DNA of 48,754 nt, taken from positions 1 through 48,754 of the IMG/VR virus record IMGVR_UViG_3300042376_001320. One strand, written 5' to 3'. Below, piece by piece: positions 1 to 29,528 of this stretch (position 1 is its first letter; the number at the start of each line of letters is the position of its first letter). A program made the translations under genes and the position numbers. A model generated the notes under the pieces. The model searched no databases. It had not been told where the DNA came from and saw only the letters and a list, made by a program, of their open reading frames with translations. This stretch comes from a virus.

Positions 1-553
1 TGTTGCCTGCCCGCTCACAGCGGGTGCCCCACTTGCAGTTCTCGGGCGTGTAGTTCCCCTCATTGTCGATGCGTTCGATGGACAACCCTTCGGGGCGCGG
101 CCCCATGTCTTTGAGGAACTGGTCGAAATCATCCTGCCACTGCGGGCAGATGGTGATCCCCCGCTCACCGTGGTTGCGGTAGGACGGGTGCAGCGGGTTG
201 TAGCAGCGTGTCCGCATGCCCTGCCAAATGCGGTAGGTGGGGTTGCGCTGGCCGTGGACTTGGTGGGTGGGCTTCACCAGACCCTCCATGCGGAGACAGC
301 CGCATGACTTTGACGCGCCGCTGACGAGTCCGCCATAGAGGACAGCGGGCTTCTCCTTGCCGCAGTCACAGAGGCAATGCCAGCGTGTCTGGCCTTTCCT
401 GGGTTTCGGCGACTCGTGGAGAACAGTCCACCGGCCAAAGCGTTTGCCGGTGAGGTCGATGAACGTGGTCCTGCTGGGCCTGCGCTCCTTGGCCTTGGGA
501 CGGTTTTCCTTCTTCTGCCTCTGCTGGGGGAACGGTGTGAAGTCGATTTTCAT
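1..553 (-). CDS. HNH-type phage endonuclease-like protein (3' end cut by window edge)
   Basis: Open from an ATG at 551..553 to the left edge (184 codons, no stop), so the C-terminus is missing. The middle carries Cys clusters (CLCDCGK, then SCGC) that look metal-binding. The distal part reads GERGITICPQW, then IERIDNEGNYTPENCKW, the pattern of phage HNH-like proteins that spread as free-standing endonucleases. An N-terminal FIDLTGKRFGRWTVL segment is also typical of that family. No SD precedes the ATG; a -10-like TATATC lies only 6 nt upstream, so the transcript may be leaderless. The role (homing, packaging or decay nuclease) is not decidable here. Confidence 0.75.
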   Translation of the reverse strand, partial: MKIDFTPFPQQRQKKENRPKAKERRPSRTTFIDLTGKRFGRWTVLHESPKPRKGQTRWHCLCDCGKEKPAVLYGGLVSGASKSCGCLRMEGLVKPTHQVHGQRNPTYRIWQGMRTRCYNPLHPSYRNHGERGITICPQWQDDFDQFLKDMGPRPEGLSIERIDNEGNYTPENCKWGTRCERAGN

Positions 554-559
554 GGAGGC

Positions 560-587
560 GATATAGCAGACTCTCAGGTAATGTAAA
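560..587 (-). promoter_or_regulatory. Leaderless-type promoter for the HNH gene
   Basis: On the minus strand TTTACA (582..587) and TATATC (560..565) are separated by 16 nt, and the start codon follows the -10 by 6 nt. The 16-nt spacing equals that of the repeated plus-strand promoters at 6077 and 6726. Inferred from sequence only. Confidence 0.45.
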
Positions 588-777
588 GATGGGATTCTCG
601 GATGCTGTGAAAAATTTGGGTTTGAACTTTGAAGGGGGTAGGGGTGCCGAGGTGAGCGGTAGAGGGGGTGGTGTAAGGTTGGGTTTCAAGAGCAAAACTG
701 GTACGGAGCTAAGTACGTGAAGAGAGGTTCGCGCTCAATGGTCACACCGGACCCGCGTGACCCTTCACCCCGCAGCA

Positions 778-853
778 CAGACAAGGAGGCACCGCTCACC
801 CCCTGCTCTCGTGCTCCGCCTGCTAGGTACTTAGCCCGGTGCCTCCTTGTCTG
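778..853. repeat. Perfect 17-bp inverted repeat, 42-nt loop
   Basis: The arms at 778..794 (CAGACAAGGAGGCACCG) and 837..853 (CGGTGCCTCCTTGTCTG) are exact reverse complements. One arm contains AAGGAGG and the other CCTCCTT, the Shine-Dalgarno and anti-Shine-Dalgarno cores. No T-run follows on either side, so it is not a standard rho-independent terminator. It could be a structured RNA, a protein-binding dyad or an origin/packaging feature. Confidence 0.8.
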
Positions 854-967
854 CGTGTCCGCAGTGTTTCCTTCCCGTGTATCTACAATGTATTAGCTAC
901 ATTTAATGACTGTAATGGAAAGGAGGATGCACCCCTAAACCCTGCATTCTCCGCTGAATCTCCATAC

Positions 968-1504
968 TTATCCCCAAAAATCCGCATCCTCTTGCACTGG
1001 CTGTAACGTCTCGGCCTCATACGTTTGAGCCTCCATAATTGCAGGCCCGCTGATGTCCTGATTTGCAAACAGGCTCAGTTGAATTTGGGGCGTGTCTGCG
1101 TCAAGAATGCCAGTGGCTTGCCGGGCGACGTGAACCGCATGTTTCAGGTCACTGGCCGATTCGATTACGATGTTGCCGGAACTGGACTCAATCGCTTGAA
1201 TCGCTGCCTCATAAGCCACGGTACGAACGTGTTCCGCCTTCTCCTGCCACGTCTCAACCAAGAGGGAACGCGAAAACTCAGAGGGGGATTTTCCCCCCAA
1301 AAGCGGGTCAAAACCGGATTCCCTACTTACCCGATCTAGTTTCGCCTTTAACCGTTTCGGGATCAACCAATCCTCGGAAGCGCATCGGTTGTATATGGTC
1401 TTGGCGTTGACCTTGAATTTTTCCGCCAAGTCGGCGAGCGGGACGCCGAGTTCCGCCAATCGCCTTATCTCCGGCCAATACTCCGTCACTTGATGATTTG
1501 CCAT
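968..1504 (-). CDS. HTH DNA-binding protein, terminase-small-subunit-like, with C-terminal FWG tag
   Basis: The start is the ATG at 1502..1504, chosen because AAGGTGA sits 4 nt upstream; an upstream in-frame ATG at 1585 would run through the intergenic hairpin. The protein has 178 residues. Residues about 10-45 (EIRRLAELGVPLADLAEKF, then VNAKTIYNRC) form a helix-turn-helix like those in phage small terminases and Mu-type regulators. It ends QEDADFWG, the acidic Phe-Trp-Gly tail found on many proteins in this window. It is co-directional with 1603..1860 but separated by a hairpin. A small-terminase role is a guess; a transcription regulator is equally possible. Confidence 0.65.
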   Translation of the reverse strand: MANHQVTEYWPEIRRLAELGVPLADLAEKFKVNAKTIYNRCASEDWLIPKRLKAKLDRVSRESGFDPLLGGKSPSEFSRSLLVETWQEKAEHVRTVAYEAAIQAIESSSGNIVIESASDLKHAVHVARQATGILDADTPQIQLSLFANQDISGPAIMEAQTYEAETLQPVQEDADFWG

Positions 1505-1551
1505 GCCGTCACCTTGCCATCCTCCCGCCCCCCAGTCAAGGGCACGAGAAA

Positions 1552-1579
1552 GGGCGGCACGTCCGAAAACATGCCGCCC
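1552..1579 (-). terminator. Candidate terminator after the 1603..1860 gene
   Basis: Arms 1552..1559 (GGGCGGCA) and 1572..1579 (TGCCGCCC) are exact complements; two inner pairs extend the stem past one mismatch. On the minus strand it is followed by TTTCTC, a weak U-tract. It sits between two minus-strand genes, so it may attenuate rather than stop transcription. Confidence 0.45.
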
Positions 1580-1602
1580 CTCCAATGTGCTATCGCCAGC
1601 TT

Positions 1603-1860
1603 TTACCGTGTGTGACGTTTGACGAGCGCCCGAACCTTGTCGGCTTCATCCTCACCCCAAAAATCGGTATCAGGAGCGACAACGGGCGAAGCTTCAACCG
1701 GCGCAACCTCCAAAATCGTTTCTGGCTGTTCACGGTCCAGCTTCTCACAAATAGCCGAGTTAATCCAGCGCGTGATGGACATCCCAAGCGGGATACGAGC
1801 AAGTTCCAGCCGCGCACGAGTCACCGGATAATAAGTCAAAAGTATTTTCTTCAGGATCAT
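1603..1860 (-). CDS. Small protein paralogous to 1857..2444, carrying an FWG motif
   Basis: It has 85 residues; the ATG overlaps the stop of the upstream gene (ATGA), indicating translational coupling. Residues 1-50 align with the start of 1857..2444: shared features are TRWIN, a Leu-Asp-x-Glu core and PETI. The motif resembles the second half of a ribbon-helix-helix fold, but I cannot assign a family. DTDFWG falls at residues 64-69, followed by a charged 16-residue tail. The product is unknown; the duplicated domain and tight coupling suggest the pair acts together. Confidence 0.6.
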   Translation of the reverse strand: MILKKILLTYYPVTRARLELARIPLGMSITRWINSAICEKLDREQPETILEVAPVEASPVVAPDTDFWGEDEADKVRALVKRHTR

Positions 1861-2444
1861 ACAGCAGCCCCCCAGAAATCGGTTTCCACCGCTGCAAGAT
1901 GAGCCTGCCGCTTTGCATCCCATTCCGCGTACTTCCGGGGATGTCCTCTCACGTCTTCCGGGATTTCGTTGAAACTTTCCAGTTTTGATTCCGCCGCAAC
2001 CTCCAATTGTTTCTGGCGATGCTCGGCCATGAAGGAAACCTTTTCGTCTTCGCTCAATTCCATGCCGTTCTTTTTCGCCACAATCTCCAAAAGGTCTTCC
2101 AGTCCAAGGATGATGCCCTTTTTCTTCAACTCACGCCGCTGGCCTTCAGCGAGCGCCAGAAAAGCGGGATCTTGCCCATATTTGATTCTGTACGGCCCGA
2201 GAAAGTCCAACGGCTTTGGAGCCTGCTTCGCTTTCTCCCACAACTCCATAGGGTTGATAGGCTTTTCAGGTTCGGGCGGCAAAACTTCCACCGCTCCAAT
2301 GGTTTCAGGGTGTTCACTGTCCAAACGCCTAGTGACAGCCTCGTTTATCCAACGGGTCAGGTTTGTCGGAATGGGCAGTTTGACCATATCCAGCCGGACA
2401 CGGTTAGAATGGTAGATTTTCAGAGTCAGTTGAAGCGGAATCAT
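1857..2444 (-). CDS. Unknown protein with duplicated N-terminal domain and near-terminal FWG
   Basis: It has 195 residues. The N-terminal 50 residues are paralogous to 1603..1860 (TRWINEAVTRRLDSEHPETI against TRWINSAICEKLDREQPETI). Then come a Pro-rich linker, a basic KKKG stretch, and a charged helical C-terminal half. It ends VETDFWGAAV, so FWG lies three residues from the end. It is the first gene of the leftward unit, starting 6 nt below a TATAGA -10-like box. No function recognised. Confidence 0.6.
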   Translation of the reverse strand: MIPLQLTLKIYHSNRVRLDMVKLPIPTNLTRWINEAVTRRLDSEHPETIGAVEVLPPEPEKPINPMELWEKAKQAPKPLDFLGPYRIKYGQDPAFLALAEGQRRELKKKGIILGLEDLLEIVAKKNGMELSEDEKVSFMAEHRQKQLEVAAESKLESFNEIPEDVRGHPRKYAEWDAKRQAHLAAVETDFWGAAV

Positions 2445-2450
2445 AGGATT

Positions 2451-2482
2451 TCTATACTATGAGGGTTATCCTCATTCGTCAA
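2451..2482 (-). promoter_or_regulatory. Leftward promoter with internal dyad
   Basis: On the minus strand TTGACG (2477..2482) precedes TATAGA (2451..2456); the gap is 20 nt, or 17 nt if TAGTAT is used as the -10. The gene starts 6 nt later. Between the boxes is the dyad TGAGG-ATAAC-CCTCA (2460..2474), suited to a repressor. Its half TTATCCTCATT (2466..2476) recurs exactly at 2551..2561. Confidence 0.4.
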
Positions 2483-2577
2483 CTCTTTCGCCTCGTGACT
2501 TGTGACTCGTGCCCTAAAAGCCCTTTTCCCTTTCTCTTTTTCTTCGATTTTTATCCTCATTATAACCTTAAATATTC

Positions 2578-2600
2578 CTGTACTAGGAAAGGGAGTACAG
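2578..2600. repeat. CTGTAC/GTACAG dyad
   Basis: A perfect 6-bp inverted repeat (2578..2583 and 2595..2600) with an 11-nt spacer in the divergent control region. The size fits an operator for a dimeric repressor, possibly the XRE protein at 15074 or an HTH protein of this phage; that link is inference. Confidence 0.4.
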
Positions 2601-2732
2601 ATTAACTAGCCAGACAGGGTAAATTACACTTTAACTATGATTACATACAAAATATATACTTCTGGCCGTTGACATCCTCAGAAAGCACTGTTAAGGTTCG
2701 TCCGTTAAAGCAACCTCAACCCGTAAAACGAT

Positions 2733-2927
2733 ATGCATCACCGAATCGAAAAACTGACGGACGCTTCAAACCTGTTTGACGTGGTGATGGCGCTTCACCT
2801 CATGGCATTGGAAAAGGTGGAACACATCGAAACGGCATGGCAGGACAAAGCGACCGCGAAACCTTGGAAAAAGGCGTCACAAGCTCTCTACGTGAGCGCC
2901 GAAAAGATCCAAGGTTTGAACATCTAA
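2733..2927 (+). CDS. Small hypothetical protein, first rightward gene
   Basis: It has 64 residues, helical and charged, with no family recognised. It starts at an ATG in an AT-rich context without SD. Its TAA opens the repeated stop-to-start linker (A-run, CCCCGCGCCC, ATGAAA) that also joins later small genes, which supports it being real. No signal peptide or membrane segment. Confidence 0.55.
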   Translation: MHHRIEKLTDASNLFDVVMALHLMALEKVEHIETAWQDKATAKPWKKASQALYVSAEKIQGLNI

Positions 2928-2941
2928 AAACCCCGCGCCCC

Positions 2942-3103
2942 ATGAAACCCGCTCCCGTTCAGCCCGATAAACTGGAACGCCTCTTGGCGACTCTTGACAA
3001 GCTCCGCGTTGAGCGGGAGCGCCGGGAGGCGCAAGAGCGCAAAACGCACGAGGACAAAAAACTGGCCAAGCTCCGCCCATGGTGGGTGGAAGCCGCACAA
3101 TAG
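2942..3103 (+). CDS. Small basic coiled-coil protein
   Basis: It has 53 residues. The start at 2942 is chosen because the ATGAAA lies at the end of the conserved linker; a longer frame from 2837 would overlap the previous gene. Residues 9-45 are a Lys/Arg/Glu-rich helix with leucine heptads (LERLLATLDKL), ending PWWVEAAQ. No function recognised. Confidence 0.5.
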   Translation: MKPAPVQPDKLERLLATLDKLRVERERREAQERKTHEDKKLAKLRPWWVEAAQ

Positions 3104-3113
3104 CAGAAAAGAC

Positions 3114-3140
3114 TTGCACTGTTAACATTTAGACTATATA
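3114..3140 (+). promoter_or_regulatory. Promoter of the repeated TTGACAC...TATATA family (leaderless)
   Basis: TTGCAC (3114..3119) and TATATA (3135..3140) are 15 nt apart. It matches the copies at 6077 and 6726 with one A missing in the -35. The ATG of the next gene begins 8 nt after the -10, at about the expected transcription start. Confidence 0.55.
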
Positions 3141-3147
3141 CTTTCAC

Positions 3148-3252
3148 ATGAACCCCCTCGACCCTCAAGAGCCTCACGCCTTCATTCAATTCGCCATTAC
3201 GATCATCTTCGCCTGCTTTTTCGCGGCAGTGCTGTTCGAATGGTGCCACTGA
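3148..3252 (+). CDS. Tiny single-span membrane protein
   Basis: It has 34 residues. Residues about 12-30 (FIQFAITIIFACFFAAVLF) are a continuous hydrophobic helix, preceded by an acidic/polar N-terminus. It sits directly behind a promoter with almost no leader, so it is probably expressed. It could be a small inner-membrane peptide of the early region; the role is unknown. Confidence 0.5.
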   Translation: MNPLDPQEPHAFIQFAITIIFACFFAAVLFEWCH

Positions 3253-3293
3253 AAACCCATGGAACCCGGCTCTCCTCAAACCGGCAACCTTTC

Positions 3294-3340
3294 GGGCGGC
3301 GAACGCCCACAGCAAACCAGAAACACAGAAAGCACACAAT
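3294..3340 (+). promoter_or_regulatory. Hairpin plus A/C-rich leader element, copy 1
   Basis: Stem GGGCG (3294..3298), loop GCGAA, stem CGCCC (3304..3308), then an A/C-rich tract containing AGCAAACCAGAAACAC just before the ATG at 3341. Related elements precede 3854, 4561 and 5579. No SD is present, so the unstructured leader may replace it. Confidence 0.5.
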
Positions 3341-3760
3341 ATGAAAACCGAACTGCAAAAAGCCCTTGCCCAGATTGCGCCATCAATCTCGATTCACACA
3401 ATCTGGGAGCACGACAACGATCATTCCGACATCCGCAAGTATTGCGATGGCATGGAAGATGAAAACCCCGACGACTGGCAGGCGTGGCAAAGCAACGTGC
3501 GAGCCGTGGCAATCGTCAACGGTGACGAGATCGAAGGTAACGCGTACCTTGGCGGAACCTGGGAAAAGGCTGGCGACGTGCCAGAGGAAAGCAATCCAGA
3601 AATCAGCGGATACGAGAATCAAATGACCGTTGAAGCATTGGAAGAGCTAGGTCAGCAAACGACAGAGTTGGACATCTCTAACCAGATCATTGCAGCCATC
3701 AAGCACTGCGAAGCCGAATCTGCTAAAACCTACGCCGCGCAAGTGGCGGAATCCAACTAG
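3341..3760 (+). CDS. Conserved phage hypothetical protein
   Basis: It has 139 residues, acidic. Segments WEHDNDHSDIRK, DDWQAWQ, YLGGTWEKAGD and NPEISGYENQMT resemble a conserved phage protein I have met in early regions, without known function. The ATG follows the hairpin/leader element, with no SD. Downstream lies another leader copy, so it reads as an independent cassette. No catalytic motif, signal or membrane segment. Confidence 0.7.
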   Translation: MKTELQKALAQIAPSISIHTIWEHDNDHSDIRKYCDGMEDENPDDWQAWQSNVRAVAIVNGDEIEGNAYLGGTWEKAGDVPEESNPEISGYENQMTVEALEELGQQTTELDISNQIIAAIKHCEAESAKTYAAQVAESN

Positions 3761-3853
3761 ACCGCGCCCGCGTCCTCCCTGCAAAAGGGGAGGGCGCAAG
3801 CGTGAGCTACAAAGCCCGCGAAACAACGAACCAAAAACAGAGAAAGCGCACAT
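3761..3853 (+). promoter_or_regulatory. Hairpin plus A/C-rich leader element, copy 2
   Basis: A 10-bp stem (3770..3779 with 3788..3797, one G-U pair) and an 8-nt loop, followed by GTGAGCTACAAAGC and an A/C-rich leader up to the ATG at 3854. Nearly identical to 4478..4560. Confidence 0.65.
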
Positions 3854-4477
3854 ATGAGAACCAAGGAAATCCAGATATTCAAATACGAGGAACTGACAGA
3901 CACGGCAAAAGCAAAAGCCCGCGACTGGTGGAAGGAATCGAGTCGCCTAGATGGGGACTCCTTTTGGAGTGAATGCACGTTTGCGAAAGAGCAAGGAAAA
4001 GCAATGGGGCTGGAAATAAGTAACGTCTATTTTTCCGGCTTCTGGAGTCAAGGCGACGGCGCATGTTTTGAAGGAAGCTGGAAAGCTGCCAGTGTCAAAG
4101 CGGAGCTTGTGGCAGATGGATGGGGCGAAAGCGAAGCAACAACGCAAATCAAGCGCATTGCCGCAGAGTTTGCCAAGTTTGCGAAAGCATGGCCGGAAAG
4201 CTCATTCACCGTCAAGCATTGCGGCCGCTACTCGCACGAGAATTGTACGGACTTTTCCGTCAGTCTTGGCGAGTATGAAGACAACGGGGAAGGTAAATCC
4301 ACCTCGGATCAATGGGAAGCAGCGGAAAAGGAAATCACGGAAACGGCGAAGGACTTCATGCGGTGGATCTACCGCCAGCTTGAAGCCGCGTACGAGGATT
4401 ACCACGCCGACGATAACGTGGCAGAGAACATCATCGCAAACGCGTACGAGTTCACCGCAGATGGAAAAATCTACTAG
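3854..4477 (+). CDS. Phage protein resembling 'antitoxin stability system' family
   Basis: It has 207 residues. The N-terminus IQIFKYEELTDTAKAKARDW and the central YFSGFWSQGDGACFEG are hallmarks of a phage/prophage family often labelled as an antitoxin of a stability system. That label is historical and I would not infer toxin neutralisation from it. The C-terminal half is acidic and helical. Hairpin/leader elements flank it on both sides. No SD. Confidence 0.7.
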   Translation: MRTKEIQIFKYEELTDTAKAKARDWWKESSRLDGDSFWSECTFAKEQGKAMGLEISNVYFSGFWSQGDGACFEGSWKAASVKAELVADGWGESEATTQIKRIAAEFAKFAKAWPESSFTVKHCGRYSHENCTDFSVSLGEYEDNGEGKSTSDQWEAAEKEITETAKDFMRWIYRQLEAAYEDYHADDNVAENIIANAYEFTADGKIY

Positions 4478-4560
4478 ACCGCGCCCGCGTCCTCCCTGCA
4501 AAAGGGAGGGCGCAAGCGTGAGCTACAAAGCGCACGAAACAACAAACCAGAAAACACGAT
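4478..4560 (+). promoter_or_regulatory. Hairpin plus A/C-rich leader element, copy 3
   Basis: Stem 4487..4496 with 4504..4513 (10 bp, one G-U), loop of 7 nt, then GTGAGCTACAAAGC and AACAACAAACCAGAAAACAC before the ATG at 4561. It differs from copy 2 mainly by one loop base and in the leader. Confidence 0.65.
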
Positions 4561-5502
4561 ATGAAAACCGAAACGAAAGTGCTCGACCTTAAAAAGTTGC
4601 TCGCTGTCAAGAATACCGAGGATAAAGCCGTTGCCGCCCGTCAAACGGCGCAACGGGAACTCGACCAAATCATCACCGGGACAATAGTGCCTGCGCTGAT
4701 TAACCCGTGCACCCTTTCAGCGGCTCGCCGTTGCAAGGTTGAGAGTGAAAAAGCCGCCGCCACCTTTACCGCGCTCCCAAAAGCCCGGCGCGAGACGGCG
4801 GAAACTGCTGCCCGTATCGCGCTGGAAATCGGCAAAAAAGCCGCGCAGATGGGCGGAGACTACAGCGGACACACGACTTACCGCGCATCCTGGGGGGTCG
4901 AGCCGTGCGCGTTCACCAACACGGACAAAGGGGATCAGTACAGCCGTCAATGCAAGTACAGCAAAACGGACGCAAGCCACACGGTCAAACTCACGCCAGA
5001 AGGATCTATCCTTTTGGTTGAGTCGGAAGCCCTGCGCCAGTGCTCCGCCCGCGAAGGTTTGCACCTGATTGCCCTGTACGCGGACAGCTCCGCCGTGTGG
5101 GTGAAAACCAGCGGCAAGCAGATAGTGAGCCAAAAAGGCTGGATCGTGGGCAACGCGGCGCTCTGCTATCACTCCACCAAATCGGCAGCGGATGCGCAGG
5201 CTGGGTTTGCCCGCAAGCTGGCTATACACGCGCGCGAGCAAAAACTCGCCCGTGCCGCTGGCAAGGTGGAGCGCCGGGCACGACTGATTGCCCGGCTCTG
5301 TGGCTCCGCCGTGGCAACCATCGAAGATGCCCGCCGACTCGGCTATTGCTCGCCCGGCATTGCCGCATTCCAAGCGGCGCATGGCATCGCCGACTCTGCC
5401 ACACTGCCGCAACTCATCCGCACGGGCAACCCATCCGCCGCCATGCTCGCGCTCAACGTGGCGCGGAAGATCAGTCAGAAAAAGGAACTGCAAACCGCCT
5501 AG
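4561..5502 (+). CDS. Hypothetical protein, 313 residues
   Basis: No family recognised. The N-terminal third is Ala/Lys/Glu-rich and helical. The middle has YSGHTTYRASWGVEPCAF and several scattered Cys. The C-terminal region is basic with RARLIARLCGS and a possible small helical DNA-binding segment (ATIEDARRLGYCSPGIAAF). It is preceded and followed by hairpin/leader elements. Codon use matches its neighbours. Confidence 0.65.
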   Translation: MKTETKVLDLKKLLAVKNTEDKAVAARQTAQRELDQIITGTIVPALINPCTLSAARRCKVESEKAAATFTALPKARRETAETAARIALEIGKKAAQMGGDYSGHTTYRASWGVEPCAFTNTDKGDQYSRQCKYSKTDASHTVKLTPEGSILLVESEALRQCSAREGLHLIALYADSSAVWVKTSGKQIVSQKGWIVGNAALCYHSTKSAADAQAGFARKLAIHAREQKLARAAGKVERRARLIARLCGSAVATIEDARRLGYCSPGIAAFQAAHGIADSATLPQLIRTGNPSAAMLALNVARKISQKKELQTA

Positions 5503-5578
5503 ACCGCGCTTGACGGCATCCGCGAGGGTGCCGCCATGCGTGAGCTACAAAGCCGCGAAACAACAAACCAGAAACACC
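5503..5578 (+). promoter_or_regulatory. Hairpin plus A/C-rich leader element, copy 4 (compensated stem)
   Basis: Stem GGCATCC (5515..5521), GCGA tetraloop, GGGTGCC (5526..5532), plus a C-G closing pair. The stem sequence differs completely from copies 2 and 3, but the following GTGAGCTACAAAG and AACAACAAACCAGAAACAC are kept, so structure rather than stem sequence appears conserved. Confidence 0.65.
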
Positions 5579-5896
5579 ATGAAGAAACCAAACATCACGC
5601 CGGGGCCGTGGCGCAAAGAATCCAACGCCGCAAACGGAGAGCAGGAAATAGGCATATCCCGCTCATGGGAAAACGGCGGGGCCAGCATTTGCCTTGTCGA
5701 TAGTTCACGCGACACGCGCATTTTGAACGCGGATGCGCAGGCAATCGCCGCGCTCCCCGACTTGCTGGCGGCATTGGGAGCAGCTTTAAGCCTGCTGGAA
5801 TGCGCAAACGACCACCAGCGAGAAGCTGGACGGATGGAATACGACACGCAAACAGCAAGAGACGCACTCGCCAAAGCCGGATACGAGTTCCCCTAA
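5579..5896 (+). CDS. Conserved small phage protein (TPGPW family), paralogue of 8171..8485
   Basis: It has 105 residues. The start MKKPNITPGPW, a central region ending AQAIAALPDLLAAL, and a C-terminal ARDALAKAGYEF match a family widespread in phage genomes with no known activity. The same order (NIT.G.W, IAAAPDMAKALE, KAALIKAGYSF) occurs in 8171..8485, so the two are diverged paralogues. The ATG follows leader copy 4. Confidence 0.7.
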   Translation: MKKPNITPGPWRKESNAANGEQEIGISRSWENGGASICLVDSSRDTRILNADAQAIAALPDLLAALGAALSLLECANDHQREAGRMEYDTQTARDALAKAGYEFP

Positions 5897-5930
5897 AAAC
5901 CCACCCCGCCAAAAACCAGCAACCACCGCC

Positions 5931-6080
5931 ATGAACGCAGATCCTCACAAACTCCGCCACCATTACGCCCAAGTAGCAACCCGCAGACGCAGGGCAAAGG
6001 CGTTGCGCACATGGGCCGCGTGTCTCGCGCTCGCCATGGTGGCGGGGTTTGTCTGGATCAAAATCGCATTCCCGGCTTGA
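5931..6080 (+). CDS. Small single-span membrane protein
   Basis: It has 49 residues. A basic N-terminal half (RRRRAKALR) is followed by a hydrophobic helix (WAACLALAMVAGFVWIKIAF), predicting Nin-Cout topology with the positive-inside rule. The ATG follows an A/C-rich leader. Its last codons contain the -35 TTGACA of the next promoter. Function unknown. Confidence 0.5.
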   Translation: MNADPHKLRHHYAQVATRRRRAKALRTWAACLALAMVAGFVWIKIAFPA

Positions 6081-6104
6081 CACTGTGAATTTTTAACCTA
6101 TATA
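6077..6104 (+). promoter_or_regulatory. Strong sigma70-like promoter for the pentapeptide-repeat gene
   Basis: Consensus TTGACA (6077..6082), 16-nt spacer, TATATA (6099..6104), followed by an (AT)n run. Family consensus CTGTGA...TTTAA is kept in the spacer, as at 6726. The start of gene 6128 is 23 nt further on. Confidence 0.75.
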
Positions 6105-6127
6105 TATATATATATATATTCGACACC

Positions 6128-6745
6128 ATGAACACCGAACAAATCAAAGAAACCCTGCGTTTACATTCCCTTTGGTTGGTAAATGACCTCGCCGGAAAAC
6201 GCGCGAACCTCTGCGGCGCGAACCTCTACGGCGCGGACCTCCGCAGCGCGAACCTCTCCGGCGCGAACCTCTACGGCGCGTACCTCCGCAGCGCGAACCT
6301 CTCCGGCGCGAACCTCTACGGCGCGGACCTCCGCAGCGCGAACCTCTCCGGCGCGAACCTCTACGGCGCGAACCTCTACGGCGCGAACCTCTACGGCGCG
6401 AACCTCTGCGGCGCGAACCTCTACGGCGCGAACCTCCGCAGCGCGAACCTCTGCGGCGCGAACCTCCGCAGCGCGAACCTCCGCAGCGCGAACCTCTCCG
6501 GCGCGAACCTCTCCGAAAACCGGGGTTTGCAATTCGCGCAAGTCGCTTTCACCGGGCACGGCGAGTGCGGGCGAATGCTCACGCTGGCAACCATTGGAGA
6601 AGCCAAGAGGTTTTTCTGCGGCTGCTTCCAAGGCACGCCCGAAGAACTCGCGGCGTACATCGAAGCCGGGCCAGACAATCTGAAAAAGTCGCGCCTGCTG
6701 GCAATGAACTTTTGCCTTGAAGTGATTGACACTGTGAGCATTTAA
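6128..6745 (+). CDS. Pentapeptide-repeat protein
   Basis: It has 205 residues. Residues about 26-133 are some 20 near-perfect A(N/D)L(C/Y/R/S)(G/S) units, which fold as a right-handed quadrilateral beta helix. Residues 134-205 are a separate C-terminal domain (GHGECGRMLTLA...CGCFQGTPEELAAYI). Pentapeptide proteins such as Qnr/MfpA mimic DNA and block gyrase, but most have no known target. The gene has its own strong promoter. DNA repeats of 15 and 30 bp make its length prone to change by slippage. The last codons (IDTVSI) overlap the next promoter. Confidence 0.9.
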   Translation: MNTEQIKETLRLHSLWLVNDLAGKRANLCGANLYGADLRSANLSGANLYGAYLRSANLSGANLYGADLRSANLSGANLYGANLYGANLYGANLCGANLYGANLRSANLCGANLRSANLRSANLSGANLSENRGLQFAQVAFTGHGECGRMLTLATIGEAKRFFCGCFQGTPEELAAYIEAGPDNLKKSRLLAMNFCLEVIDTVSI

Positions 6746-6753
6746 ACTATATA
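6726..6753 (+). promoter_or_regulatory. Sigma70-like promoter, repeated family
   Basis: TTGACA (6726..6731), 16-nt spacer, TATATA (6748..6753). The spacer CTGTGAGCATTTAAAC resembles that at 6083. The -35 lies inside the end of the pentapeptide gene. It drives 6840..7298. Confidence 0.7.
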
Positions 6754-6839
6754 CCCGCGCAATCAATTTCCAGCGGTGGACGCTGGCAGACAGAGAAACC
6801 AACGGGGGAGACACCCGCAAAACGTCAAAAGCAAAACAT

Positions 6840-7298
6840 ATGAAAACGACACCAAACGAATACGACACCCAAGCGGAGCAGTTCTTGACCTCCAACGAGA
6901 TCAAGTTCCGCGCCACGCTGAGCGACACCAAAGCGCCAGCGTGGGGAGACAACGGCAAGCACGGCCATCACTACCGTGTGACGCTTAGCAAGGGCAAAGC
7001 AGGCACTCCAGAACATACCGGCAACGTCTGCGCTTCAAACCGCCTGACCTTCGACTTCTGGTCAAGCATCGCAGACGCGGAGAAAGGCATTCAAACCGTC
7101 TCCGCGTATTCTGTGCTCGCCTGCATCTCGGGCGATGCGTACACGCCGGAAACCTTCGCGGACTTCTGCGCGGAATACGGGTACGAGTCGGACAGCATCA
7201 AATCACTCCAGACGTTCCGCCGCTGTTCGGCCTTCGCCAAACGGCTGCGCGCCTTCTTCACCGGGGCCGAGCTTGAGCAGTTGCAGGAGATCAACTAA
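6840..7298 (+). CDS. Conserved phage hypothetical protein
   Basis: It has 152 residues. Segments FLTSNEIKFRATLSD, APAWGDNGKHGHHYRVTLS, LTFDFWSSIADA and YTPETFADFCAEYGYESDS match a family common in early regions of diverse phages, of unknown activity. Its internal DFWSS is unrelated to the FWG tails discussed elsewhere. An 86-nt leader separates promoter 6726 from the ATG; its last part is A-rich with no SD. Confidence 0.75.
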   Translation: MKTTPNEYDTQAEQFLTSNEIKFRATLSDTKAPAWGDNGKHGHHYRVTLSKGKAGTPEHTGNVCASNRLTFDFWSSIADAEKGIQTVSAYSVLACISGDAYTPETFADFCAEYGYESDSIKSLQTFRRCSAFAKRLRAFFTGAELEQLQEIN

Positions 7299-7394
7299 AA
7301 ACCGCCCTCGGGCGTTAATGCAGCCGCAACGGTGCGCCGGTCACAAGCCCGGACAAATGCAGAGTGACGCAACAAACCAAACGACCAAGACAAT
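7299..7394 (+). promoter_or_regulatory. Divergent copy of the hairpin/leader element
   Basis: A short CGCCCTCGGGCG dyad just after the upstream stop and an A/C-rich CAACAAACCAAACGACC tract before the ATG at 7395 follow the same plan as copies at 3761, 4478 and 5503, though the middle differs. Confidence 0.35.
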
Positions 7395-7877
7395 ATGAAA
7401 ACACTATACACCCGCGACCTGTACAAGCGTAAATGCAAACTCGAAGAACTCCGCGATGCCGTCACCACGGCACGCGAGGAACTGGAGGGAAAGAAAGGCG
7501 AGCTGGCAGCATTGGAGGAAACCCCCGAAGATGAGGCGAGCGAGGCCGCGCTGGAGATTGCCAGCGAAGGAGTGACAGACGCAGAGAGCAATCTTGAAAT
7601 CGCCGAGTCCGACTTCAGCGACGACGAGAAAGCCGAGCTGGACGAACTCGAAACCCTCGAAAACGAGATCAGCGAGTTCATGCACGGTGAGACGATGATC
7701 CCCGAAAGTGATTTCGAGGATTACGCCCGCGAGATGGCCGAGGTCATCCACGGGAAAGCAGTTCGCGAGGCCACATGGCCTTTCACCTGCATCGACTGGA
7801 CTGAAGCCGCCGAGCAACTGCAACAGGACTACTCCACGGTCGAGTACCAAGGTGAAAGCTACTACGTCCGCAGCTAA
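7395..7877 (+). CDS. Acidic coiled-coil phage protein
   Basis: It has 160 residues. Residues about 10-100 are an uninterrupted Glu-rich coiled coil (LEELRDAVTTAREELEGKK and onwards). The C-terminal part WPFTCIDWTEAAEQLQQDY and YQGESYYVRS is a conserved block in small phage proteins of unknown role. The highly negative charge could suit DNA mimicry, but this is speculation. The ATG follows an A/C-rich leader. Confidence 0.7.
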   Translation: MKTLYTRDLYKRKCKLEELRDAVTTAREELEGKKGELAALEETPEDEASEAALEIASEGVTDAESNLEIAESDFSDDEKAELDELETLENEISEFMHGETMIPESDFEDYAREMAEVIHGKAVREATWPFTCIDWTEAAEQLQQDYSTVEYQGESYYVRS

Positions 7878-7937
7878 AGCCCGCAAGCCAGAACCCGCCC
7901 GCCCCATAGCCAGGGGCCGCCGAGTTTTGGATTGTGC

Positions 7938-7986
7938 GCTTGACACGATGAAAATTCACCCTTAAAACCCCGCGCCCATGAAAACT
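7938..7986 (+). repeat. 49-bp direct repeat, copy A (promoter plus start)
   Basis: Positions 7938..7986 equal 9182..9230 except for one base in the linker. The unit spans the -35, -10, linker and the first three codons of the following gene, so the whole expression signal was duplicated. Confidence 0.9.
7940..7967 (+). promoter_or_regulatory. Promoter, repeated family
   Basis: TTGACA (7940..7945), 16-nt spacer, TTAAAA (7962..7967). The ATG at 7978 is 10 nt below the -10, implying a leader of only a few nucleotides. Confidence 0.55.
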
Positions 7987-8157
7987 TTTCGAGACAACCC
8001 GCCCATCGGCAAAACCCGGCATTCCGTTTCCTTCCACGGAGGCACCAAATTCCACAAAGACGGCAGCCCCTTTTTCGATCTCCAGACCTTCCGCCGACGT
8101 GCGGACAAAAACACATTCGTGCGCAGCCTTGAACAAACGAGACACACCGTCGCCTAA
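7978..8157 (+). CDS. Small conserved phage protein
   Basis: It has 59 residues, basic. The core SFHGGTKFHKDGSPFFDLQT followed by FRRRADKNTFVRSL resembles a short protein I have met in other phages. Start is set by the repeated promoter/linker ending in ATGAAAACT. No membrane or signal features; function unknown. Confidence 0.65.
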   Translation: MKTFRDNPPIGKTRHSVSFHGGTKFHKDGSPFFDLQTFRRRADKNTFVRSLEQTRHTVA

Positions 8158-11580: not shown

Positions 11581-12026
11581 CCTTTTTCAAATCCATATTC
11601 ACCGACAAGCTCGCCGCCATGCGAGCCGCCGCCCCCCGCGCTACCCTGCGCATGCTCCACGAGAGCAACGGTTTTTCTCTCTACCTCGACGAGGCTGCCG
11701 CCGCCCGCAAAGTGTCGCAGCTTGGCACGTTGACCGACTACGCCGAGGACATCCTGGAGGACAGCATACCGACCCTGATCGTCCCGTTGGAACAGACCAT
11801 GAAGTTCGTGGAGGAGGTGACAGCCGTACACTCGGTCGCCTTCGTGGACGTGTGCCTCGCCAACCGGGTCAACAATGCGCGGCACACGATGTACGCGTAT
11901 TTTCCGAAGCGGCAGGCAAAACGGGAAACGTCTGCGTGGCCTTACACTGCCGCCGAGCAGGCGGAGATTGACGAGGAGAGTCGGAAGGCCATGCCAGTCG
12001 AAGAATCTGACGACTTTTGGGGTTGA
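11577..12026 (+). CDS. Hypothetical protein with C-terminal FWG tag
   Basis: It has 149 residues. It opens with MTFFKSIFTDKLAAMRAAAP; the middle (LTDYAEDILEDSIPTLIVPLEQ) is amphipathic; the end is acidic and finishes VEESDDFWG. No family recognised. It is coupled by ATGA to 11317..11580. The stop context GGGGTTGACA contains a consensus -35 that may serve the next transcription unit. Confidence 0.6.
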   Translation: MTFFKSIFTDKLAAMRAAAPRATLRMLHESNGFSLYLDEAAAARKVSQLGTLTDYAEDILEDSIPTLIVPLEQTMKFVEEVTAVHSVAFVDVCLANRVNNARHTMYAYFPKRQAKRETSAWPYTAAEQAEIDEESRKAMPVEESDDFWG

Positions 12027-12054
12027 CAATCTGTCCGCACCGTTTCAGTATAGT
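12023..12054 (+). promoter_or_regulatory. Candidate promoter for the NAD gene pair
   Basis: TTGACA (12023..12028) overlaps the upstream stop codon. TATAGT (12049..12054) is 20 nt away; a 17-nt spacing would give CAGTAT. The same TTGAC(A/G)-N20-TATAG layout occurs at 2451..2482 on the minus strand. Confidence 0.4.
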
Positions 12055-12070
12055 GAAATTCAAACACACC

Positions 12071-12859
12071 ATGAAGACCATCAACCTGATCACCGGAGAG
12101 CGTGTAAAAACTCTCCTTTTCCCGGACAACCAGCCTCACGTCACAGTGAATGACATTCAGCCGGGAGACGACGTGCGGGTTGTTTGTCCAATCCGAAGTC
12201 CCCTCGAACTAGTTCAGTTGATGCTCGTGGTCAATGCAGTGCGACACACACAAGCGACACCCCGCGAACTTGTGGTACCCTACCTGATGGGTGCTCGGTA
12301 CGACCGCATCATCAATACTGGCGACAGTTTTGACCTTGAGGTGGTGGCGCAGTGCATCAACTCCTGTGGTTTCTTATCGGTCAACCTGTTCGATGTTCAC
12401 AGCAGCGTTGCCACATCTTTGATTCACAACTCGCGATCTCACAACAACAGCAGGCTGGTCAAAGCCTACAACCAGTTGGGCGCGGTTCTCATCGTGCCCG
12501 ACAAAGGAGCTGTCAGCAAAGCCGCCGACTACCAAGATTGGAACGCCTGCCTTTCGGAAAAAGTGTTCTGCGACAAAGTCCGCGACACCACGACCGGGCG
12601 TGTGTCCCTCGTGGTACAGAACCCGGAAATTTGCACTGGACGCAACTGCGTCATCATCGACGACATTTGCGATGGTGGAGCCACGTTCCTTGCCATCGCA
12701 GAGCAGATTGAACCAGTTCACCTCACCCTGATAGTTTCGCACGGCATCTTCTCCAAAGGTTTTCACACTTTGAAGGAGAAGTTTGACGAGATCATCACAA
12801 CCGACAGCTTTTGGCATCACGCCGCAGACAAAGTAACCACCATCAAACTCGGACTATGA
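12071..12859 (+). CDS. Ribose-phosphate pyrophosphokinase-like protein (Prs or ADPR-pyrophosphate synthetase candidate)
   Basis: It has 262 residues; the ATG follows CAAACACACC. The Prs fold is visible: PYLMGARYDR, FDVHSS, VLIVPDKGAVSKA, the mobile-loop CDKVRD, and the phosphoribosyl-binding loop DDICDGGAT at residues 197-205. Cellular Prs enzymes have about 315 residues; phage forms are shorter. Two reactions are possible: ribose-5-phosphate plus ATP to PRPP, or ADP-ribose plus ATP to ADPR-pyrophosphate as in the NARP1 anti-immunity pathway. Its partner, a NAMPT-like transferase, starts 318 nt downstream. Motifs alone cannot settle the substrate. Confidence 0.9.
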   Translation: MKTINLITGERVKTLLFPDNQPHVTVNDIQPGDDVRVVCPIRSPLELVQLMLVVNAVRHTQATPRELVVPYLMGARYDRIINTGDSFDLEVVAQCINSCGFLSVNLFDVHSSVATSLIHNSRSHNNSRLVKAYNQLGAVLIVPDKGAVSKAADYQDWNACLSEKVFCDKVRDTTTGRVSLVVQNPEICTGRNCVIIDDICDGGATFLAIAEQIEPVHLTLIVSHGIFSKGFHTLKEKFDEIITTDSFWHHAADKVTTIKLGL

Positions 12860-13092: not shown

Positions 13093-13176
13093 CCTGCTGA
13101 TTATCGCGGCGACATTCATCTCGGTTATCCGAGCGGGATGGAGTCTCGAAAAAACCAACGACCCTTACTCCTTCCA

Positions 13177-14640
13177 ATGACCACAAATCCTTGCACTCAA
13201 ATCGACGGCTACAAAGTGGACCACCGCCGCCAATACCCAGAAGGGACCGAGCTGGTGTTCAGCAACCTGACCTCCCGTAAAACCCGCCGCGCCGGAAATC
13301 CTGACATGGTGTTTTTCGGACTGCAATACTTCGTCAAAGAAGTGCTCATACGCCAGTGGAACGAGAACTTCTTCCAACGTCCAAAAGAAAAGGTTGTGGC
13401 CGAGTTCAAGCGACGTATCAAAAACTACTTGGGTCCGAACGAAGTCGGAACGGCGCATATCGAAGCCCTCCACCATCTCGGCTACCTGCCGATCAAGATC
13501 ATGTCTTTGCCGGAAGGCAGTGTGTACCCGATTCGAGTACCTTGCATGGTGATCTGGAACACTTTGCCAGACTTTTTCTGGCTGACCAACTACCTTGAAA
13601 CGATCCTGTCCACAAGCGTTTGGGGGATGTGTACTTCTGCTACGACAGCCCGGCAGTATCGACTGCTGCTTGACAGATATGCTTTGGACACGGTCGGTTG
13701 CACAGACTTCGTCCAATGGCAGGGTCACGACTTCTCGTTTCGAGGCATGTTTGGGCCGGAGGCAGCCATGATGTCGGGGGCGGGACACCTTCTCAGCTTC
13801 ACTGGGACAGACACCATCCCAGCCATCGACTTCCTTGAGAAGTATTACAACGCCGACTCGGACAAAGAGCTTGTTGGTGGCAGCGTCCCTGCGACCGAAC
13901 ATAGCGTTATGTGCGCCGGAGGCATGGACAATGAACTTGGTACCTTCCGTCGCTTGATCAAAGACATCTACCCGGCAGGAGTCGTCTCTATCGTTTCGGA
14001 CTCGTGGGACTACTGGCAGGTGTTGACCCAGTTCACAGTCCAACTGAAGGAAGACATCCTCTCCCGCGATGGTAAAGTGGTGTTTCGTCCCGACACAGGA
14101 GACCCGGTGAAGGTGGTGTGTGGAGATCCAGACGCGCCCGCAGACTCCCCCGAGTACAAAGGTTCTATTGAGGTGTTGTGGGAGGTGTTCGGAGGCACAA
14201 TCACTCCGCAAAGGTTTCGCCAATTGGACACCCACGTTGGTCTGATCTACGGGGACAGCATCACTCTCGAACGTGCCGAGGCTATCTGCGAAGGTCTGAA
14301 GTCCAAAGGCTTCGCCTCGACCAACGCGGTGTTTGGCATTGGCAGCTACACCTACCAATACGTCACCCGCGATACGGATGGGTTTGCAGTGAAGGCCACA
14401 TTTGCCCGAGTCAACGGAGTTGACCGCGAGATTTTCAAAGCTCCGAAAACAGACGACGGCACCAAGAAGTCGGCCAAAGGGTTGACTGCGGTGTTCAAAA
14501 CCGATGGGCAGTACCAACTGAAGGACCAAGCGACTTGGGAGGAAGTGCTCGACTGTGCGTTCGTCCCAGTGTTCGAGGACGGAGTCCTGCAAAAGGATTA
14601 CACTTTGGTGGAGGTTCGCGAGAATCTTAGGAACGGTTGA
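13177..14640 (+). CDS. nadV: Nicotinamide phosphoribosyltransferase-like protein (NAMPT/NadV or Namat candidate)
   Basis: It has 487 residues, the usual NAMPT length. MTTNPCTQIDGYKVDHRRQY matches the NAMPT start, which decides the ATG at 13177 over 13138. SVPATEHSV places the catalytic His at residue 242; SIVSDSWD, RPDTGDP and YGDSITL give the phosphate/ribose site; FGIGSYTYQYVTRDT and FKAPKTDDGTKKSAKG complete the fold. The known reaction is nicotinamide plus PRPP to NMN. In NARP1 a homologue joins nicotinamide to ADPR-pyrophosphate, making NAD+ directly. No NMN adenylyltransferase is visible nearby, which mildly favours the second option. Confidence 0.92.
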   Translation: MTTNPCTQIDGYKVDHRRQYPEGTELVFSNLTSRKTRRAGNPDMVFFGLQYFVKEVLIRQWNENFFQRPKEKVVAEFKRRIKNYLGPNEVGTAHIEALHHLGYLPIKIMSLPEGSVYPIRVPCMVIWNTLPDFFWLTNYLETILSTSVWGMCTSATTARQYRLLLDRYALDTVGCTDFVQWQGHDFSFRGMFGPEAAMMSGAGHLLSFTGTDTIPAIDFLEKYYNADSDKELVGGSVPATEHSVMCAGGMDNELGTFRRLIKDIYPAGVVSIVSDSWDYWQVLTQFTVQLKEDILSRDGKVVFRPDTGDPVKVVCGDPDAPADSPEYKGSIEVLWEVFGGTITPQRFRQLDTHVGLIYGDSITLERAEAICEGLKSKGFASTNAVFGIGSYTYQYVTRDTDGFAVKATFARVNGVDREIFKAPKTDDGTKKSAKGLTAVFKTDGQYQLKDQATWEEVLDCAFVPVFEDGVLQKDYTLVEVRENLRNG

Positions 14641-23375: not shown

Positions 23376-25424
23376 ATGAATTTTCATCTGGATTTCGAGA
23401 CACGCTCAACGGCGGACATCAAGCGCACAGGCGCTTTTCGGTACGCGGAAGACCCGTCCACTGAGATCCTGTGCGCAGCCATAGCTCGCGACGGCGAGGG
23501 TCCGCTGCTGTGGGTGAATCCCAAGTTCGAGTTCGACGACATGTCCGTGTGCCGGTCGTCGCCAGGGGTGGACGAACTGATTGCCGAGATGAACCGCAAC
23601 GATGCTCCGGTGTACGCGCATAACGCCTACTTCGAGCAGGCGATCACCAACCACTGCCCGAACAACCGTTGGTTCAAGATCGACTACCGCCGCTGGCGCT
23701 GCACCGCCGCCATGTCCCGCCGCGCTGCCATCCCGCCATCCCTGGAGAAAGCTGCCGAGACGCTGGGCTTGCTGCAACAGAAGGACAGCAAAGGCAAAGC
23801 ACTGATCCGCAAGTTCTCCATCCCGCAGAAAGCCTCCGGCAAGTTCATTCAACCCATTGACCGACAGGACGACTTTATTGCATTCTGCAATTACTGTATC
23901 CAAGACGTTCGTGCGGAGCAGGGAATCCACAAAACTCTCAAGCACTTCGAGCTGACCGGCAACACGCTGGCAGCGTTCCAGGCTGACCTCGCCATCAACT
24001 CCCGTGGTCTGCCGGTCAACCTGCCCGCCCTGCGTCACGCTCAAACGCTGATCGAAGCCAACGAGGCTCGCATGACCGAGGAGTTCCGTGAACTCACCGG
24101 CTTCAACCCGACCCAACGTGACGTGCTGTTGAAGTGGCTCAAGGAGCACGGGTATGAGGGCGACAACCTCCGCGCCGACACACTGGACGAACAGTTGGAG
24201 GATGAAGCCTTTGACCCCACCACGACGGTTGGTCGCGTGCTCACCATCAAAAAGTCTCTCAGCTTTGCCAGCATCAAGAAGGTGAAAGCAATGATCGAGT
24301 GTGCGTGTGCTGACAGCCGGGTGCGCGGCACCATTCAATTCTACGGCGCAGGTCCGGGTCGTGCATCCGGCAGACTGGTTCAGCCGCAGAACTTCAAACG
24401 CCCCACGATCAAAAACACCGACGCCGCCTACGCCGACATCATGGCGGGAGCGAGCGAGGCACACATCGAAATATTCTACGGACCTCTGCTGGAGGTCATC
24501 GGCTCGTGCATCCGTCACTTCATTCACGACGAAGCTGGGCCGATCTTCGACGTGGACTTCAGCAGTATCGAAGCCCGTATCGCGGCATGGTTGGCGAACG
24601 AGGAGTGGACGCTTGAAGTGTTCCGCACTCACGGCAAGATTTACGAGGCGACCGCATGCCGCATGTCTGGGATGCCTTTGCAGGAGATGCTAGACTACGC
24701 CAAAGAGCACGGCAAACATCACCCAGACCGACAGAAGGGTAAGGTCGCAAGTTTGGCACTTCAATACCAGGGCGGAGTGGAAGCTCTCAAAGACATGGGT
24801 GCTCTCGACATGGGGGTGAAGGAGGAAGAGTTGGAGGAGGTGGTCGAGCAATGGCGAGAAGCTAATCCGAACATCGTCAAAGTCTGGCACGCCTATGATC
24901 GTGCGGCCAAAGCCGCCGTGAGTAATTTTGGTTCCCGCCATCAGGCGGGCAAAGTCGAGTTCTTTTGCGCGGTAACGGCGGGAACCAAGTATCTGTTCGC
25001 CAAACTGCCGTCAGGTCGTCGTCTCGCCTACCGCGATCCCAAAATTGAGGAGACCGTCAGTCGGAACAAGAAGACCGGAGAGATTGAGACGTGGGAAAGC
25101 GGCAAGATCAAAACTCGTCAATCTCTCACCTACTGGGGGCAGATTCGCGGCAAAACTATCTGGGGTCGATGCGGTCTATACGGAGGTCTTTTGCTCCAGA
25201 ATTTCTGCGAAGGGGTCGGCGCTGACCTGCTCAACAACGGCATCATCAAATCAGAGGCAGCGGGCTACGAGGTGTGCTCGCTGATCCATGACCAGATTCT
25301 CACCTACACTCGTGAAAGCCAGTCCATCGAAGAATTGGTTGGACACATGACCAATGTGCCTGAGTGGACGAAAGGTCTGCCCGTGGCAGCCGATGGTAAA
25401 GTTCAACCCTACTACACCAAGTAA
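23376..25424 (+). CDS. Family A DNA polymerase with 3'-5' exonuclease domain
   Basis: It has 682 residues. Exonuclease DEDD motifs: HLDFETRS (4-11), VYAHNAYFEQAI, and YCIQDVRAE. Polymerase: GRASGRLVQPQNFKRP, motif A VDFSSIEARIAAWLA (about 393-407), motif B region RQKGKVASLALQYQGG, and motif C SLIHDQI with the catalytic HD at about 638-639. No 5'-3' exonuclease domain, as expected for phage PolA. It replicates the phage genome with 15659..18259 and the ssDNA-binding protein. The 107 nt between the tRNA-like element and the ATG hold only a weak AAGAGA/TCTCTT dyad. Confidence 0.95.
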   Translation: MNFHLDFETRSTADIKRTGAFRYAEDPSTEILCAAIARDGEGPLLWVNPKFEFDDMSVCRSSPGVDELIAEMNRNDAPVYAHNAYFEQAITNHCPNNRWFKIDYRRWRCTAAMSRRAAIPPSLEKAAETLGLLQQKDSKGKALIRKFSIPQKASGKFIQPIDRQDDFIAFCNYCIQDVRAEQGIHKTLKHFELTGNTLAAFQADLAINSRGLPVNLPALRHAQTLIEANEARMTEEFRELTGFNPTQRDVLLKWLKEHGYEGDNLRADTLDEQLEDEAFDPTTTVGRVLTIKKSLSFASIKKVKAMIECACADSRVRGTIQFYGAGPGRASGRLVQPQNFKRPTIKNTDAAYADIMAGASEAHIEIFYGPLLEVIGSCIRHFIHDEAGPIFDVDFSSIEARIAAWLANEEWTLEVFRTHGKIYEATACRMSGMPLQEMLDYAKEHGKHHPDRQKGKVASLALQYQGGVEALKDMGALDMGVKEEELEEVVEQWREANPNIVKVWHAYDRAAKAAVSNFGSRHQAGKVEFFCAVTAGTKYLFAKLPSGRRLAYRDPKIEETVSRNKKTGEIETWESGKIKTRQSLTYWGQIRGKTIWGRCGLYGGLLLQNFCEGVGADLLNNGIIKSEAAGYEVCSLIHDQILTYTRESQSIEELVGHMTNVPEWTKGLPVAADGKVQPYYTK

Positions 25425-28985: not shown

Positions 28986-29528
28986 ATGAAAGACGACAAC
29001 AAACCAGAAGCGCCGGAAGGTTACACAGTGATGCTCGGGAAAGACGTGCCAGACCCAGTGCCACAGGACACGTTGGTCTGGGATGCGAAAAACGATCTCG
29101 AAGGGTGCCCCCACGAGTGGCGACCCAGTCTGCTGATTGGGGCACACCTACATGCAGAGCAGTTCAACTCTTGGTACGCCGTGCCGAACGTCGAAACCGA
29201 CGACGAAACCCTGCACCTGCGCGGGCCTTACCGTGTAGTATCCCCCGACACAGACCCCAAAGCCCCTCAATCCCTCGCCGAAGAGGCCGCAGCCATTGTG
29301 GCTGGAGACCGTGCAGCCGACTACGGCGACGTGAACGACTCTTTCGCTCGCATCGCGAAACTGTGGAGCGCCTACACAGGGTCGCACATCTCCCCGTGGG
29401 ACGTGGCGCAGATGATGATTCTGTTGAAAGTCAGCCGAGCCAAGACGAGTACGAAGCGAGACACCCTGGTTGACATCATCGGGTATGCCGAATGCGCAGG
29501 CCAACTGAAGAAACCACGAACAGACTGA
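28986..29528 (+). CDS. Phage protein with C-terminal DUF6378 domain
   Basis: It has 180 residues. The C-terminal half (EEAAAIVAGDRAADYGDVND, FARIAKLWSAYTG, WDVAQMMILLKVSR, KRDTLVDIIGYAECA) is the DUF6378 pattern, a helical domain common near phage nucleotide genes and reminiscent of MazG-like folds. The N-terminal half is unassigned. Start taken at 28986 after an A/C-rich ACACAGACACC; an ATG at 28962, overlapping the previous stop, would add eight residues. Confidence 0.8.
   Translation: MKDDNKPEAPEGYTVMLGKDVPDPVPQDTLVWDAKNDLEGCPHEWRPSLLIGAHLHAEQFNSWYAVPNVETDDETLHLRGPYRVVSPDTDPKAPQSLAEEAAAIVAGDRAADYGDVNDSFARIAKLWSAYTGSHISPWDVAQMMILLKVSRAKTSTKRDTLVDIIGYAECAGQLKKPRTD

Follow-up and report, generated by a model that had tools for sequence, protein, structure and literature searches.

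We describe a perfect 17-bp inverted repeat in an intergenic spacer of a phage genome, which is real rather than a product of chance and forms the core of a long hairpin predicted on the coding strand of the neighbouring genes. Comparison of the spacers of related phages leads us to propose that the elements kept across lineages are a long hairpin in this position and short flanking motifs, with the sequence of the stem itself drifting. The repeat is probably a local control element of mRNA or DNA, not a small RNA touching the ribosome, and our tentative first choice is a hairpin that acts in cis within the mRNA of the operon.

Sequence data and related records

The window, by which we denote the whole stretch of DNA analysed, is a 48,754-base virus record from a phage that encodes a polymerase, a helicase, a primase and an exonuclease. 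Searches with the 178-aa protein that adjoins the spacer and with a portal-like protein added six records, and in four of these the gap between genes was readable. Four distinct spacers were compared (those of the window and of records G002, G003 and G006), G001 being 100% identical to the window over 414 nt and adding no independent information. The neighbour protein is 98% identical in G002, where the gap is 67% identical over 206 aligned columns; judged from the aligned sequences, this last figure is not remarkable in itself, since most of the window region 671-3713 also falls below 91% against G002, with matches of at least 91% only over 955-1687 and 2518-2747. Identity of the neighbour protein is 70% in G003 and 43% in G006, where an HNH-like gene follows the gap, as judged by eye.

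The G003 gap consists of tandem repeats with 8-, 11- and 17-nt units (TGACCTGG and others) extending over hundreds of bases, with repeat stretches at L203:6615-6994 and L209:1-287. Both G003 contig ends fall inside this array, the middle of which is therefore unread, and by eye the stretch from the array to the next gene is free of HNH genes. The first base of record G004 falls 23 nt inside the gap, and the 178-aa protein finds no counterpart in this record; G005 stops short of the gap.

Wider searches were carried out on several collections. The exact arm pattern of the repeat returned 87 stretches from IMG/VR, 80 of which were taken as loci, and the loop pattern returned 100, with 80 of the 100 listed. 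BLAST of the spacer against 203 loci recovered only the window and G001, G002 and, for the end of the neighbour gene, G003. Neither the 178-aa protein nor the portal-like protein had a match in 50,697 phage records; positions 1-8000 of the window found similar DNA in seven of these records, with the best places within 6194-6515, matching pentapeptide-repeat or repeat genes and, in one record, a hypothetical gene. Genome contigs were also searched and yielded no relative of the 178-aa protein. The protein and the spacer likewise gave no matches in 14 large-terminase records, G005 included, these being records of 4-40 kb for which an empty result is uninformative.

Genomic context of the spacer

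The neighbouring genes, as read from open-reading-frame lists, lie on the coding strand of the hairpin. At the left end of the window the same lists give a minus-strand order of a 195-aa protein, a protein of about 106 aa, the 178-aa helix-turn-helix protein (968-1504, minus strand), the gap, and an HNH endonuclease gene (2-553, minus strand) that is cut by the end of the window and encodes 279 aa in G001. The first-pass annotation had placed the repeat in a gene-free stretch of 414 nt, and such a spacer indeed runs from 554 to 967 on the minus strand, between the HNH start codon (553) and the stop codon at 968. Read on the coding strand, it comprises a G-rich part that holds the hairpin, followed by a C-rich, G-poor part; this succession, around either a hairpin or the array, is present in four of four spacers. 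The spacer also contains an AT-rich patch (880-939, GC 0.35), that of G003 has a run of alternating T and A, and there are no promoter-like matches within the spacer.

In G001 the block continues with more minus-strand genes, including one for a 780-aa protein that we read as portal-like from its sequence, with no match in PHROGs, Pfam or PDB sequences. Further G001 proteins are likely scaffold and capsid, again judging by sequence, and these putative assignments had no significant database match. The 178-aa protein is predicted to have an N-terminal helix-turn-helix and further helices in a model of low confidence (mean pLDDT 53). Its match to PHROGs is weak (phrog_664, 'DNA binding protein', E 0.0055), and the best fold match of the model is 2ao9 at E 1.2, with no fold match below an E of 1. 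From these weak matches the protein looks like a small terminase. It also contains the sequence QIQLSLF, which we take to resemble a sliding-clamp-binding motif and of which all four aligned relatives retain LSLF. The large terminase, a 666-aa protein (29492-31492, plus strand) that matches annotated large terminases in 16 records, all at under 60% identity, is encoded 28 kb from the spacer on the opposite strand.

The motif CATCTTTACA (582-591, minus strand) lies in the leader of the HNH gene and in relatives is also found before the next gene of the block. A role as a repeated phage promoter found no support, with 2 matches at up to 1 mismatch against 1.4 expected. The HNH genes (2-553, minus strand, in the window; L222:254-754, minus strand) are on differing sides of this motif: the gene comes after it in G001 and G002, each with a second copy of CATCTTTACA past the HNH gene, and before it in G006. 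Together with the lack of an HNH gene there in G003, this arrangement suggests that HNH genes were inserted repeatedly beside the spacer.

The inverted repeat and its hairpin

The two arms of the repeat, 778-794 (CAGACAAGGAGGCACCG) and 837-853, pair at all 17 positions and enclose a loop of 42 nt. The first-pass annotation had described them so, and its account of their surroundings is also borne out: the loop bases 827-835 form an exact complement to 708-716, AAGGAGG and CCTCCTT both lie in the stem, where the predicted fold pairs them with each other, and on neither strand is the stem followed by a T-run. The pairing of the loop with 708-716, a possible pseudoknot that by eye is not kept in G002, sits inside a 17-nt, 82% pair between 700-716 and 827-843. 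Allowing loops of up to 80 nt, no perfect arm in the window exceeds these 17 nt, and the runner-up has 13. When the whole window was dinucleotide-shuffled 100 times, its longest arm measured 10 nt (39 shuffles), 11 nt (37), 12 nt (17) or 13 nt (7), and it is because this shuffled maximum stays at 13 that the repeat cannot be put down to chance.

The repeat is the core of a longer minus-strand hairpin, P1 (769-864, about 96 nt, -55.1 kcal/mol), which ranks first in stability among structures of up to 100 nt on both strands of the 48.7 kb. The fold has 34 pairs in total, and its 5' side includes a run of 18 that takes in the 17 perfect pairs. Hairpins processed by RNase III have a long stem of about 20 bp and lie on the coding strand between genes, and P1 has these properties. 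Its loop carries the motif AGCAGGCGGAGCACG (810-824, minus strand), identical in G002 at the aligned place, and by eye a similar sequence, TAGCAGCGGTGCA, is held in the G006 hairpin. An intrinsic terminator was discarded as a candidate, as it would call for a hairpin and then a T-run; the sole terminator-like match near the stem is a 5-pair hairpin at 851-864. A search of the window against Rfam 15 gave no matches at the gathering score, and those below it were to generic hairpin models of microRNA precursors.

Folding statistics

Folding energies were compared with shuffled sequences in two ways. In the first, the whole spacer (for G003, the 314 nt after the array) was shuffled 100 times and the best structure of up to 100 nt was retained. 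The coding strand then scored -55.1 in the window (z -5.4, 0/100), -62.4 in G006 (z -4.8, 0/100), -45.3 in G002 (z -2.9, 1/100) and -47.0 in post-array G003 (z -3.2, 0/100), against reverse-strand z values of -1.5, -2.2, -0.4 and +0.3, respectively. By this control the coding strand folds more strongly than the reverse strand in all four spacers, which favours RNA. In the second, only the segment was shuffled, and the hairpins of the window (z -6.0, 0/500; reverse strand z -4.3) and of G006 (z -4.2, 0/500; reverse strand z -1.3) remained well apart from their shuffles, whereas that of G002 was marginal (z -1.8, 22/500) and the G003 segment was not significant (z +0.4, 309/500). Since the two controls disagree for G002 and G003, a robust long hairpin is present in two of the four distinct spacers, those of the window and G006. 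It is in these two, one of them a distant relative, that coding-strand folding lends support to an RNA structure of some kind.

Folds of larger or different segments gave a mixed picture. Folded whole, the window spacer has a z of -2.5 on the coding strand (1/100) against -0.5 on the other (31/100), and in the segment 690-880 the two strands are about equal (z -2.3 and -2.4). A 363-nt stretch of the G002 spacer has a whole-fold z of +0.4 (62/100), and the best G002 structure ranks sixth within an 11-kb piece. The first 90 nt of the G003 spacer are not more structured than shuffles (z +0.8). The G003 array folds strongly (-58.4 at L209:48-144), and tandem repeats of this kind fold strongly by themselves. 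No consistent strand preference was found in the 5' and 3' parts of the spacers.

Conservation of pairing and of flanking motifs

In the alignment of the window with G002, 9 of the 17 pairs are invariant, 1 has changed on both sides and is still paired, and 7 are broken. The covariation between the two sequences was reached by 234 of 500 shuffles. The percentage paired, 79.4 against 38-47 in slid versions, is a difference to be expected because the stem was taken from one of the two aligned sequences. Among the four distinct spacers the exact stem occurs only in the lineage of the window. At the same place as P1, G006 has a different, equally long and strong hairpin, so that two differing hairpins of 92-96 nt occupy one position, each far stabler than shuffles. 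Seven of the pairs in the G006 hairpin are G-U, and no A-C is found among its three 1x1 mismatches, as expected for an RNA of the coding strand. Conservation of pairing in relatives, on which the first-pass annotation had laid weight, thus fails for the exact stem, with seven of its eight changed pairs broken in G002, but a long hairpin as such recurs in this place in G006.

Short motifs accompany the hairpin. On the side of the 178-aa gene, TATGGAGATTCA (955-966, minus strand) lies one base past the stop codon, and TAYGGRGATTCA is shared at that same position, one base beyond the stop codon, by four of four distinct spacers. On the other side, CACGCGGGT (751-759, minus strand) lies in a small second hairpin, P2, and AACCTTACACCA (669-680, minus strand) lies where the C-rich part begins, its first base 79 nt downstream of that of CACGCGGGT. 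Both occur in three of the four spacers, at start-to-start distances of 79, 81 and 78 nt, and the exact pair is missing from the G002 spacer. AACCTTACACCA is confined to the spacer in the parts searched, namely the window, all G002 pieces (where it is absent), G003 and 21 of the 60.7 kb of G006; away from the spacer, CACGCGGGT has one extra copy in the window (37884, minus strand) and one in G002. By eye, the final base of AACCTTACACCA is in G006 the first base of the start codon of the HNH-like gene. The motifs were chosen after viewing these spacers, and their agreement is descriptive. More informative is a scan of viral contigs with the combined CACGCGGGT and AACCTTACACCA pattern, which returned three stretches, all from known relatives, and nothing else; the single stretch matched in a Planctomycetota contig lies, by eye, within coding sequence and was set aside as chance.

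Other features of the genome

Several proteins of this phage have FWG C-termini, mostly after acidic residues, as in NEEDFWG (helicase) and EDADFWG (the 178-aa protein). Of the 451 stop-to-stop frames in the window with 60 codons or more, 8 end in FW[GED], and the corresponding stops are at 968 (minus strand) and at 11351, 12026, 22056, 25967, 28162, 28936 and 28965 (plus strand). Stops of this type in the loci of relatives are at L090:6693 (minus strand) and L206:1971 (plus strand), and the frame at the G002 HNH gene ends in PPDDFWG. Replisome proteins of T7 carry C-terminal docking tails, and by analogy the FWG tail looks like a shared C-terminal docking tail; a literature search on FWG-type tails returned nothing relevant. 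At 28900-28965 (plus strand), overlapping frames stop 29 nt apart with NEAQFWG (28936) and NEEDFWG (28965), an arrangement that duplication of the tail into a second frame would give.

The minus strand also encodes a 2613-aa protein (39770-47611) without Pfam or PHROG match, where the G003 open frame measures 4142 aa. Ribose-phosphate pyrophosphokinase-like and nicotinamide phosphoribosyltransferase-like genes at 12017-12859 and 13138-14640 (plus strand) form, from their sequences, a possible NAD-synthesis pair. A tRNA-Ser (cga) call at 23574-23667 (minus strand) is probably false, given its placement within the DNA polymerase gene of the other strand.

Discussion

In the reading that we tentatively prefer, the repeat would be the stem of a hairpin in a minus-strand operon mRNA that leads into the phage head genes, with the spacer transcribed together with the operon. 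The long double-stranded RNA might then serve as a processing or insulating point that separates early-gene from later-gene expression, an RNase III-type enzyme cutting the stem or the stem protecting the end of the mRNA, and the C-rich, poorly structured part might act as the 5' leader of the downstream message. What suggests processing or insulation is the position of so long a hairpin between genes with no T-run, and intergenic hairpins of this sort are known from phage mRNAs such as those of T7. The findings do not discriminate among processing, insulation and attenuation. Against this reading stand the broken stem of G002 and its marginal hairpin, the G003 segment that folds no better than its own shuffles, the equal folding of both strands over 690-880 and the absence of a promoter match in the spacer. 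With T7-type intercistronic RNase III hairpins the present element shares a long intergenic stem within one operon, a coding-strand fold and the lack of a T-run; it differs from them in a stem that drifts quickly, and its own fold is a prediction. A literature search on phage RNase III sites returned nothing specific.

The perfect stem may have arisen, or been repaired, through template switching during replication. Template switching can generate perfect stems, according to PMC8794818, and such an origin fits the present case in that one lineage has a perfect stem and its relative an imperfect one, as in the quasipalindrome hairpins treated there. The parallel differs in that no outgroup here is close enough to give the direction of the event, which cannot be told from two sequences.

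Packaging offers a credible but unlikely alternative, in which the spacer would be a DNA pac or cos site bound by the small-terminase-like neighbour, with the protein recognising the spaced motifs or a DNA hairpin. The helix-turn-helix of the low-confidence model, the nearly fixed distance between CACGCGGGT and AACCTTACACCA in three lineages and the restriction of AACCTTACACCA to the spacer are all in keeping with such a site, and so are the contig ends in or near the spacer, where both G003 ends fall in the array, G004 begins inside the gap and the window starts in the HNH gene. Contig ends coincide elsewhere too, however (the start of G001 and the end of G002 lie within 295 nt), and repeats or strain variation may explain them. 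The small-terminase identity comes from weak matches, the large terminase is far away on the other strand, G002 is missing both exact motifs, and the stronger folding of one strand tells against a DNA site. Like pac and cos sites by small-terminase genes, the spacer adjoins a likely DNA-binding gene and has an HNH gene nearby and a near-fixed motif distance, but here the large terminase is elsewhere, folding is strand-biased and the ends are known only as contig ends; a literature search on hairpins with a terminase small subunit gave no match. A fast-evolving structured RNA tied to packaging, with a pRNA-like role and made from the gap beside the small-terminase-like gene, could be imagined, in which relatives would keep the place and size of the hairpin and two spaced motifs and almost all of the stem sequence would turn over; we consider it decidedly improbable.

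The tandem repeats of G003, the broken stem of G002 and a window/G002 divergence that is not special to the spacer could all come from a neutral, low-complexity spacer in which slippage and template switching yield functionless hairpins and repeats. We think this rather unlikely, as motifs are kept at both ends of the spacer even where the neighbour protein is only 43% identical, and as two different hairpins, each far stabler than its shuffles, stand in the same place. A replication origin whose hairpin is recognised by the phage's own replication proteins appears improbable; it would be consistent with the shift of the coding strand from G-rich to C-rich within each spacer, with the AT-rich patch and the alternating T and A run of G003, and with the primase, helicase and polymerase that the phage encodes. 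The cumulative skew of the window tells neither for nor against an origin, the spacer being at the window's edge, where a turning point would not show. The first-pass annotation had also raised the idea of a small RNA in contact with host 16S rRNA, which as a free molecule would pair by way of AAGGAGG or CCTCCTT. These Shine-Dalgarno and anti-Shine-Dalgarno cores are present in the stem, but the predicted fold leaves neither accessible, none of the other three distinct spacers has either core in full, the stem is not kept in G002 and Rfam offers no match at its gathering score, all of which makes this role scarcely believable. The shorter GGAGG or CCTCC has one occurrence in the G002 spacer and two in that of G006, none of them within the hairpin.

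If the preferred reading of a cis-acting mRNA element is true, one more phage operon would come under the control of an intergenic hairpin, in a group of phages to which the annotated phage records searched offered no close relative. If the spacer were instead a packaging site, it would locate the start of packaging in phages whose large terminase and likely small terminase are encoded far apart. The four spacers make up a small natural series in which selection on structure or place may be set against selection on sequence, and in which template switching may be studied as a builder of stems.
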